Shown here piece after piece: positions 13,596-16,107 of a stretch of DNA of 64,000 nucleotides. The translations under genes were made by a program, and so were the position numbers. Location of the stretch: NCBI RefSeq assembly GCF_040362765.1, contig NZ_BAABWK010000001.1:1651501-1715500 (forward strand), written 5' to 3'. A model generated the notes under the pieces. It ran no database searches, was not told the origin of the DNA, and saw only the letters and a program-made list of their open reading frames with translations. Position 1 is the stretch's first letter. Every line of letters begins with the position of its first letter. This DNA is from Pyruvatibacter sp. HU-CL02332. Its GTDB lineage: Bacteria; Pseudomonadota; Alphaproteobacteria; CGMCC-115125.

Positions 13596-13632
13596 GTCAC
13601 GAAACGACTGCCTGTACACTTCACTCCCGCAT

Positions 13633-13712
13633 CCCCGGACTTGATCCGGGGTCCACTCTCGGTCGCTGTACAGGTGATGGTTTGCGAGTAGGCCCCGGAT
13701 CAAGTCCGGGGC
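13633..13712. repeat. Inverted pair of alphaproteobacterial palindromic units
   Basis: CCCCGGACTTGATCCGGGG at 13633-13651 is answered by its exact reverse complement at 13693-13711, and each unit is itself nearly palindromic. The 41-base spacer contains no clear signal. GGAC-TTGATCC units of this kind are dispersed in many alphaproteobacterial genomes between genes. It lies 38 bases after the methyltransferase stop and could act as a transcript-end structure. Confidence 0.7.
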
Positions 13713-14156
13713 TACGTAATTTTTTGTGTTCTCTATCCCCGGTCCTTTGAGCGGCCTCATACTGGGTGCGCCTCGTGCTTGAGGGCATCCCGGACCGTCC
13801 GGGCTTGGGCATGGGGGCGGATGGCCTTGTGGGGTGCTTGCGGGTAACGAACGCAAACGACCACAAGGCGGCGAAGGCTCGGCCCGGCGCGTAAAGTAAG
13901 ATCGCCCCGGTGGACGTGCATGCGGACGCGACACATGGCCAGACCGGTGTCGGAATGCATGTGTGACCGGTAGCAGGGCTGCGGTGGAACACTGCGAGGT
14001 AACGCCTTGCCCCATCGCTTGTGCAAAAGCCGAAGACCATTCGTAACGGGAGCGCTGCTTACGAGCGGCACTCGAACCATTTTTTGATCACAACGGCCGG
14101 GCTGCCACGGCGGCGCTCCCGTTCTCCCTTGCCAGAGATGCCTCTTGAAAGCAGCT
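13713..14156. other. Unassigned 440-base intergenic region, possible structured or repeated element
   Basis: No convincing gene: several overlapping frames are open on the minus strand, but none has a ribosome site or a recognisable product. The right end carries a perfect 11-base inverted repeat, AACGGGAGCGC (14045-14055) and GCGCTCCCGTT (14113-14123), enclosing 57 bases that include a T6 run. The block 13800-14040 is GC-rich and full of short self-complementary segments. I see no match to tmRNA, RNase P RNA, 6S or SRP RNA motifs. Confidence 0.35.
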
Positions 14157-14160
14157 TTTA

Positions 14161-14178
14161 AATATGCATATACATATT
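14161..14178. promoter_or_regulatory. Candidate MarR operator upstream of the MarR gene
   Basis: AATATG-CATATA-CATATT: the outer hexamers are reverse complements, and the inner ATATGCATAT is also palindromic. It ends 21 bases before the MarR start codon. A closely related sequence lies before the next gene (14686-14703), sharing 13 of the first 14 positions. Autoregulation by the MarR protein is the simplest explanation. Confidence 0.6.
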
Positions 14179-14199
14179 ACAGGTGATCAGGAGACAGCC

Positions 14200-14649
14200 A
14201 TGCCGACAAAGACCGACAGAAAAGAGCTGCTGGACATCGGCCAGAACTGTGCCGCGTTGCGCACGCGCATGGCGGCGCGCGGTGTGACCCGCGCCTATGA
14301 CGCGGCCCTGCGGCCGCTGGGCATCAAGATCACCCAGTTCACATTGCTGGTGACAGCGAAATACGAGGCGGAATTGTCCATAGGTGACATGGCGGATTTT
14401 CTGGCCATGGAGCGCTCGACCCTGACCCGTAACCTAAAGCTGCTGGCGGAGATGGGCCTGATTGAGATGCGTAAAGGCTCAGCCCCGCGCACCAAGGTGC
14501 CGATCATCACACCCAAGGGCGATGCGCTGCTCACAAAGGCCATTCCCGTCTGGAGAGATGCGCAGGCGCGGCTGACCGCCCATATGGGCAAGACCAGATG
14601 GAAAGAAGCGCGCACCCTTCTGACGGATCTGTCGCTGGTCCCCGGCTAA
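14200..14649 (+). CDS. MarR-family transcriptional regulator
   Basis: A 149-residue winged-helix regulator. The HTH spans about residues 50-95, with LSIGDMADFLAMERSTLTRNLKLL as helices, and the wing reads RKGSAPRTKVPIITPKG. A C-terminal dimerisation helix follows. ATG 14200 was chosen because CAGGAGA precedes it at proper spacing; an upstream in-frame start at 14164 would lie inside the operator palindrome. It probably represses itself and the Fe-S protein downstream, since both promoters carry the same motif. The ligand is unknown. Confidence 0.9.
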   Translation: MPTKTDRKELLDIGQNCAALRTRMAARGVTRAYDAALRPLGIKITQFTLLVTAKYEAELSIGDMADFLAMERSTLTRNLKLLAEMGLIEMRKGSAPRTKVPIITPKGDALLTKAIPVWRDAQARLTAHMGKTRWKEARTLLTDLSLVPG

Positions 14650-14685
14650 GCCGGTCACACTATTGTTCTGAACATCACACATTCA

Positions 14686-14703
14686 AATATGTATATACAC
14701 TAA
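14686..14703. promoter_or_regulatory. Second copy of the MarR operator motif, before the Fe-S protein gene
   Basis: AATATGTATATACACTAA matches the upstream site AATATGCATATACATATT at 13 of the first 14 positions. It lies 12 bases before the start codon at 14716, overlapping the likely promoter or leader, so bound repressor would block expression. Confidence 0.55.
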
Positions 14704-14715
14704 TAGGAGTGCCTC

Positions 14716-16107
14716 ATGGCTCTCGAAGATCAACAGGCCGTCATTCGCTATCGCCAGAGCGCGGCTGCGCAAACCGCCAGCCGGAAGGGCGCCTCGCTCG
14801 ATTCCGAATGGCTCAAGGCGTTGGTGCTGGAGTGCGGTGCGGACGATGCAGGTTTCGTCGCCATCACCCGCGAAGAGCTGCAACCGCAGCTTGGCAAACT
14901 CACCAAACTGATGCCGCAGGTCAAAACCCTGGTCAGCATCTGCTGCCGCATGAATCGCACAGCCGTTCAAAGCACCACGCGCTCGATTGCCAATCATGAG
15001 TTTCACGAAACCTATGACGAGGTAAACCATGTGGCCCGAAAGCTGGTGCGGCGCCTGACCGACGAAGGCTATGACGCCATGAACGCGGTCGCAGCCTTTC
15101 CCATGGAAATGCAGAACGCGCCCGGCGACACCATCCCCATTCACCACAAACCCATCGCGGAAGCTGCGGGCATCGGCAAGATGGGCCTGCACCGCAATGT
15201 CATTCACCCCAGGTTTGGCAATTTCATTCTGCTGGACACGGTGCTGATCGCCCATGAGGTCAGCGAACAGAGCGCAGCGCTGGACTACAGCCCCTGCATC
15301 GACTGCAAACTGTGCGTATCAGCCTGTCCGGTGGAAGCCATCGGCATGGACGGCTCGTTCAATTTTTCGGCCTGCTATGCCCACAACTACCGCGACTTCA
15401 TGGCCGGGTGGGCAGACTGGGTGGACCAGGTCGTCGAGGCCAAGGACCGCGATGACTTCCGCACCCGCGTGACACCGGGCGAGACGGCATCGGTCTGGCA
15501 AAGCCTGTCCTTCAAGCCCAACTACAAGGCGGCCTATTGTGTCGCCGTCTGCCCGGCGGGGGAAAACGTGCTGGGTTCGTTTCTGGAAGACCGGGTCGCC
15601 TACAATCGTGACCACGTGCAGCCCTACAAAGAGCTGACGGAAACGGTCTATGTGCTGCCGGGGTCAGACGCAGAAGACTCAGTGCCCCGCCGCTACCCCC
15701 ATAAGACGGCAACCCGCGTCGGCTGGGCCATGGATGCCACCGAGATCTTCAGCTTCCTGTTCAACCTGACGCTCACCTTCCAGCGCCGTCAGGCACGCGG
15801 CGTGTCGCAGATCATCAATCTGGTGCTGCCGGGCAGAGAAGGGGACGAAAATCCACTGGAAGCCAGCCTTCGCATCCATGACCAGCGTCTGGAAATCCTC
15901 TACTGGCATGCGCCTGAAGCAGATCATCACATTACGTGTTCGCAGGACACATTCATCGCCATGTTCCGTCATGACTTTGATCTGGACACTGCGCTGGAGG
16001 CAGGAGATATCGCAGGCGACATGAACGCGCAGGCGATCCGTAAACTGATCAAGTGTTTTCCAAAATATGGCTATCTGCCGCCACAGATTTTGCAGGCAGC
16101 AGACTAG
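14716..16107 (+). CDS. QueG/reductive-dehalogenase-like 4Fe-4S protein with SCP2-like C-terminal domain
   Basis: A 463-residue cytoplasmic protein. The central part carries a ferredoxin motif, C194IDCKLCVSAC204P, and a second cysteine set C220, C275, C279 in AYCVAVCPAGE. This is the layout of the double-cluster module in epoxyqueuosine reductase and reductive dehalogenases, although the usual corrinoid-binding N-terminus is not evident. Residues about 345-448 look like an SCP2 sterol-carrier fold (LTFQRRQARGVSQIINLVL). The ATG follows TAGGAG. The gene is preceded by a MarR gene and shares its operator. Its stop overlaps that of the convergent GST gene by 3 bases. The substrate is unknown, possibly a hydrophobic xenobiotic or lipid. 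Confidence 0.8.
   Translation: MALEDQQAVIRYRQSAAAQTASRKGASLDSEWLKALVLECGADDAGFVAITREELQPQLGKLTKLMPQVKTLVSICCRMNRTAVQSTTRSIANHEFHETYDEVNHVARKLVRRLTDEGYDAMNAVAAFPMEMQNAPGDTIPIHHKPIAEAAGIGKMGLHRNVIHPRFGNFILLDTVLIAHEVSEQSAALDYSPCIDCKLCVSACPVEAIGMDGSFNFSACYAHNYRDFMAGWADWVDQVVEAKDRDDFRTRVTPGETASVWQSLSFKPNYKAAYCVAVCPAGENVLGSFLEDRVAYNRDHVQPYKELTETVYVLPGSDAEDSVPRRYPHKTATRVGWAMDATEIFSFLFNLTLTFQRRQARGVSQIINLVLPGREGDENPLEASLRIHDQRLEILYWHAPEADHHITCSQDTFIAMFRHDFDLDTALEAGDIAGDMNAQAIRKLIKCFPKYGYLPPQILQAAD

Follow-up and report, generated by a model that had tools for sequence, protein, structure and literature searches.

A QueG/RdhA-like protein fused to an SCP2 domain and linked to a MarR regulator: a candidate further family of class III cobalamin enzymes

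In the literature that we searched, the described class III cobalamin enzymes fall into just two families, the reductive dehalogenases (RdhA) and the epoxyqueuosine reductase QueG; others may exist but are difficult to recognise, as no sequence motif marks them (PMC4646009). The distal cluster of S. thermophilus QueG has C184, C187, C190 and C243 as ligands, and the B12-proximal cluster has C194, C210, C236 and C239 (PMC4646009). A third system of relevance here, the M. tuberculosis regulator MosR, senses oxidation via a Cys10–Cys12 disulphide (PMC5823404). A literature search for SCP2 together with either QueG or a reductive dehalogenase brought up no relevant description, in keeping with a sequence-only reading of the present locus that had proposed an undescribed enzyme; one paper, in which an SCP2 gene of Pseudomonas fragi was changed by linalool, could not be linked to the enzyme family.

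The window analysed here is a stretch of 64,000 nucleotides from Pyruvatibacter sp. HU-CL02332, in which the following features were assigned:

14160–14179, no strand: palindromic operator AAATATGCATATACATATTA before marR (from the sequence)
14164–14649, + strand: MosR-like MarR regulator (Pfam MarR; PDB match 4fx0; conserved neighbour in 11 loci)
14685–14699, no strand: second operator AAATATGTATATACA, separated from the enzyme ATG by 16 bp (from the sequence)
14716–16107, + strand: QueG/RdhA-like double-cluster protein with a C-terminal SCP2 domain, 463 aa (ORF; full-length homologues)
14794–15282, + strand: N-terminal domain, residues 27–189, homologous to the class III cobalamin-binding domain (hhalign; PDB profile matches)
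15283–15561, + strand: ferredoxin-like module, residues 190–282, with C194, C197, C200, C204, C220, C275 and C279, and A272 (invariant columns; QueG ligand assignment, PMC4646009)
15733–16062, + strand: SCP2-like lipid-binding domain, residues 340–449, with invariant C447 (Pfam SCP2 in 17 of 19 members; PDB profile matches)

A homologue search was made for full-length relatives of the protein encoded at 14716–16107 (36–95% identity). Of 385 genomes sampled from the class, 12 encode one, counting the genome of origin; a second genome sample gave four more, and a search of genome contigs gave a further relative on one Zavarzinia MAG contig. Plasmids of Nostoc and Priestia megaterium also encode full-length homologues, annotated solely as 'SCP2 sterol-binding domain-containing protein'. 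The search for the same architecture elsewhere, which the sequence-only reading had suggested, located it in ~3% of the sampled Alphaproteobacteria as well as on these plasmids; no relatives of the enzyme were present in the viral contigs searched. Nineteen members were aligned (family alignment A1), and the counts of invariance given below refer to these. Besides the Fe–S cysteines, E95, F96, K145, R160, H164, W261–L264 and C447 were invariant. The homologue on the Nostoc sp. C052 plasmid (L022, 8001–9344) is interrupted by an in-frame TAG at about residue 34, which places its annotated start further downstream, and this copy is possibly decaying or restarted.

When residues 27–190 of the family, without the Fe–S motif, were compared with QueG using hhalign, a probability of 98.6 and a score of 100 were obtained. 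The N-terminal domain gave 96.4 and 64 against RdhA, while QueG compared in the same way with RdhA gave 95.5 and 59, so the family is no further from either than they are from each other; the highest score among 40 column-shuffled controls was 21. A search of the PDB with the N-terminal profile returned tetrachloroethene reductive dehalogenase first (E 0.0045) and QueG second (E 0.012), both with modest E-values, and an AGxGxxGxxRxxxHPxFG stretch that is nearly invariant in the family has a counterpart conserved in QueG and RdhA alike. On these comparisons, the family has the class III superfamily architecture, a cobalamin-binding-type domain followed by a ferredoxin-like module, and since the N-terminal domain is that of a class III cobalamin enzyme, the kinship goes beyond the common ferredoxin motif; QueG and the reductive dehalogenases appear to be relatives at comparable distance. 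Cobalamin riboswitches were found in 16 of 16 carrier genomes versus 8 of 14 control genomes, a weak test because most relatives may use B12 regardless. Together, the homology and the presence of riboswitches in all 16 carriers suggest that the enzyme uses B12.

Within the ferredoxin-like module, C194-x2-C197-x2-C200-x3-C204 is followed by C220, C275 and C279, all of them invariant in the 19 homologues, which bears out both the ferredoxin motif and the second cysteine set that had been noticed in this ORF. The counterparts of the QueG distal-cluster ligands are C194, C197, C200 and C279, and those of the B12-proximal ligands are C204, C220, A272 and C275, where the placement of C220 is taken from the pairwise alignment, as the whole-superfamily MAFFT alignment misplaces this residue. 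The proposed QueG-like Fe–S module is thus present with seven of the eight QueG cluster cysteines. At the position of QueG C236, 18 of 19 members have Ala (A272), Cys being kept only by the most divergent member, L006. The proximal cluster would therefore be held by three cysteines, or else by a fourth ligand other than Cys.

The C-terminal domain is an SCP2 domain by profile comparison, weak in this protein alone (12.2 bits, E 0.24, below the Pfam SCP2 cut-off of 21.3) but solid for the family. Pfam SCP2 matched 17 of the 19 members (best E 7.8e-11), and the C-terminal family profile searched against the PDB retrieved SCP2 (2c0l; E 5e-6), the SCP2-like C-terminal domain of Pisa1 alkylsulfatase (E 1e-5) and, as a weak match among the SCP2 relatives, UbiJ. 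AlphaFold2 models built from two sequences had a pLDDT of ~53 for the C-terminal domain and 37 for the full-length protein, values too low for the folds to be confirmed from them. Nearly all top Foldseek matches of the low-pLDDT C-terminal model were SCP2-type, with none significant (best E 0.065), while in VIA-align unrelated chains led at Z below 6 and the SCP2 rows had values of 3.3 to 3.8. By family profile, then, the domain resembles those of SCP2 proteins (PF02036: SCP2, alkylsulfatase C-terminal domain, UbiJ); unlike these, the window protein joins SCP2 to an Fe–S/cobalamin-type core and has the invariant Cys447. The alignments and profiles indicate that the predicted QueG-like/SCP2 fusion is real, comprising a class III-like N-terminal domain, a ferredoxin-like module and an SCP2 domain.

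The best NCBIfam match of the window protein was TIGR00276 (QueG), at 50.4 bits against a cut-off of 200; at a quarter of this cut-off, it was also the sole TIGR00276 match in its own genome, which is without QueG. Like QueG (TIGR00276; 5D6S, 5D08), the protein has a homologous N-terminal domain, the first ferredoxin motif and all but one of the cluster ligands. Unlike QueG, it lacks the DYH catalytic motif (TYD here, varying in relatives), has A272 in place of a proximal-cluster Cys and an insert of ~26 residues between C220 and A272, carries SCP2 where QueG has its C-terminal helical-repeat domain, and is MarR-linked. The position matching the proposed proton donor is Tyr (Y100) in only 13 of 19 members, and the acid–base residues of QueG and RdhA are not conserved. 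With RdhA (TIGR02486; PceA) it shares a homologous core at comparable distance, for which a corrinoid and two clusters are expected; the RDH model matched all 19 members (best E 1.3e-12). By contrast with RdhA, it falls in a separate clade, scores far below the cut-off (18.5 bits versus 160 for TIGR02486), has an SCP2 domain and is short of one cluster ligand. In the tree, the members clustered together with a support of 0.87, separately from both QueG and RdhA.

A separate QueG above the cut-off was found in 13 of the 16 carrier genomes. The own genome encodes QueA together with QueH, which is non-homologous to QueG, and a role of the enzyme as this genome's substitute for QueG was rejected because QueH is present. 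QueH replaces QueG here (G000 C1:1952156-1952680, within L069), while QueG is retained by the other carriers examined that do not belong to the genus.

The control by MarR that had been proposed for the enzyme was supported both by neighbourhood and by operators. A marR gene adjoins the enzyme gene in 11 loci, whether upstream, downstream or divergent, while the remaining neighbourhood varies. The 15-bp operator form AAATATGYATATACA, with up to one mismatch, occurs at just two sites in the 3.45-Mb genome, one in front of marR and the other in front of the enzyme. A GYATATRC core was found 15–60 bp before the enzyme in 9 of the 11 MarR-linked promoters (shuffle mean 0.1, maximum 2), whereas all seven promoters from members lacking a MarR neighbour were without it; partner and core are conserved across distant genera. 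In the interval 14164–14200, the first ATG of the marR ORF as listed falls within the operator, so the true start is probably ATG 14200, giving 149 aa. The best PDB match of this MarR was 4fx0, M. tuberculosis MosR (E 2.8e-22). As in MosR (4FX0/4FX4), the closest structural-database match, the first sensing Cys is present, being invariant in 11 of 11 linked MarRs (C29 in ORF numbering, or C17 when counted from the probable start). Unlike MosR, where a CxC redox pair lies at the start of helix 1, the second Cys is found in only 5 of 11 and is missing in this MarR and five others, and a different enzyme is controlled. In other carriers, TetR or HxlR genes adjoin the enzyme, which is the pattern of ligand-inducible accessory genes. 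Upstream of marR lies an inverted repeat of 14 nt, AACGGGAGCGCTGC, whose arms are 51 nt apart (14045–14123), and the window also contains a 31-nt imperfect inverted repeat of the CCCCGGACTTGATCCGGGG type (13628–13716) with DPGSSPG-like translations, from which it looks like a dispersed repeat of alphaproteobacteria.

The explanation that we favour, while placing it somewhat short of an even chance, is that the family adds a third branch, so far undescribed, to the class III cobalamin/4Fe-4S reductases. Its members would be inducible enzymes dedicated to detoxification or repair, with a hydrophobic electrophile as their target. What the sequences themselves show is the three-domain architecture, homology to both class III families, a set of invariant cysteines, a marR gene beside the enzyme and an operator common to the two. 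A self-contained, inducible one-enzyme module that combines a hydrophobic-ligand domain with a low-potential redox core fits such a function, and the apparent induction via the enzyme's own stress-sensing repressor makes detoxification of a greasy reactive chemical probable. In the proposed mechanism, an oxidant or electrophile would modify the cysteine that is invariant among the MarRs (C29 in ORF numbering), and the modified repressor would release both operators, allowing the enzyme to be made. The SCP2 domain would position the hydrophobic substrate beside the corrinoid, a donor would feed electrons by way of the distal and then the proximal cluster into Co(II), and the resulting Co(I) would attack the substrate, cleaving a C–O or C–X bond. 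Candidate substrates may include an epoxide, a halogenated compound or another reductively cleavable lipid-like molecule, with dehalogenation being one option among several; the sequence-only reading, which had suggested reduction or dehalogenation of a hydrophobic compound, is partly supported as a whole. The family is a concrete candidate for a further class III family, and since it comes with an SCP2 clue to substrate type, a regulator and an operator, the inducer, and via the inducer the substrate, could be sought with a simple reporter. If true, B12-dependent reduction would be extended to hydrophobic molecules within an inducible stress response.

Supporting this explanation are the N-terminal homology above shuffled controls, SCP2 across the family, the invariant cluster cysteines, the riboswitches in every carrier, an operator at exactly two promoters of the genome, the regulators and operator kept in distant genera (with TetR/HxlR elsewhere), the similarity to an oxidation sensor, and a patchy distribution that includes plasmids. 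Against it stand the missing DYH and inconstant Y100, the lost Cys ligand of the B12-nearest cluster in 18 of 19 members, the single Cys of the MosR pair in 6 of 11 MarRs, this one included, the weakness of the riboswitch test and the poor quality of the structure models. The lost ligand and the unconserved acid–base residues would be accommodated by a cobalamin-independent enzyme, in which the N-terminal domain has lost its corrinoid and the open iron of a three-cysteine (C204, C220, C275) proximal [4Fe-4S] cluster binds and reduces the substrate, as is known for IspG/IspH and proposed for QueH. We consider this unlikely, although it is a serious contender: the AGxGxxGxxRxxxHPxFG stretch is still nearly invariant, the domain is as near to QueG and RdhA as those two are to each other, all carriers have B12 riboswitches, and the fourth cluster ligand may be another residue. 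A more speculative reading, which we regard as doubtful, would pair a corrinoid with a site-differentiated [4Fe-4S] cluster held by three cysteines, with lipid-like substrates delivered by SCP2 and Cys447 serving in catalysis or cluster ligation, as a third cobalamin/Fe-S reductase class with new chemistry.

The matches of the RDH model to every member, and the tetrachloroethene enzyme at the top of the N-terminal PDB search, would be expected of a reductive dehalogenase proper that removes halogen from a hydrophobic organohalide, but the low TIGR02486 score, the position outside the RDH clade and the lack of noticed dehalogenation genes among the neighbours examined make this distinctly improbable. 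A similarly low probability is assigned to a biosynthetic or membrane-lipid enzyme whose substrate is a lipid, quinone or fatty-acyl group of the cell itself and whose SCP2 domain acts as in UbiJ. The weak UbiJ match is consistent with such a role, as are the Priestia copies, which have SDR, FabF and MaoC genes nearby. The fab genes of the window, however, are not kept beside distant homologues, and an operator at two sites, a patchy distribution and regulators that can be exchanged speak for an inducible function of the accessory kind. Finally, an ordinary epoxyqueuosine reductase with an appended domain, which the sequence-only reading had named as the outcome that would count against it, is highly improbable: TIGR00276 is the best NCBIfam match and the own genome is without QueG, but that match lies far below the cut-off, DYH and the helical repeats are missing, QueH and QueA are encoded in the same genome, and most carriers have a separate true QueG.

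The class-wide RDH search also revealed many alphaproteobacteria with RdhA-like proteins of ~330–380 aa that score below the RDH cut-off (e.g. L066, L067), which are possibly another undescribed branch.
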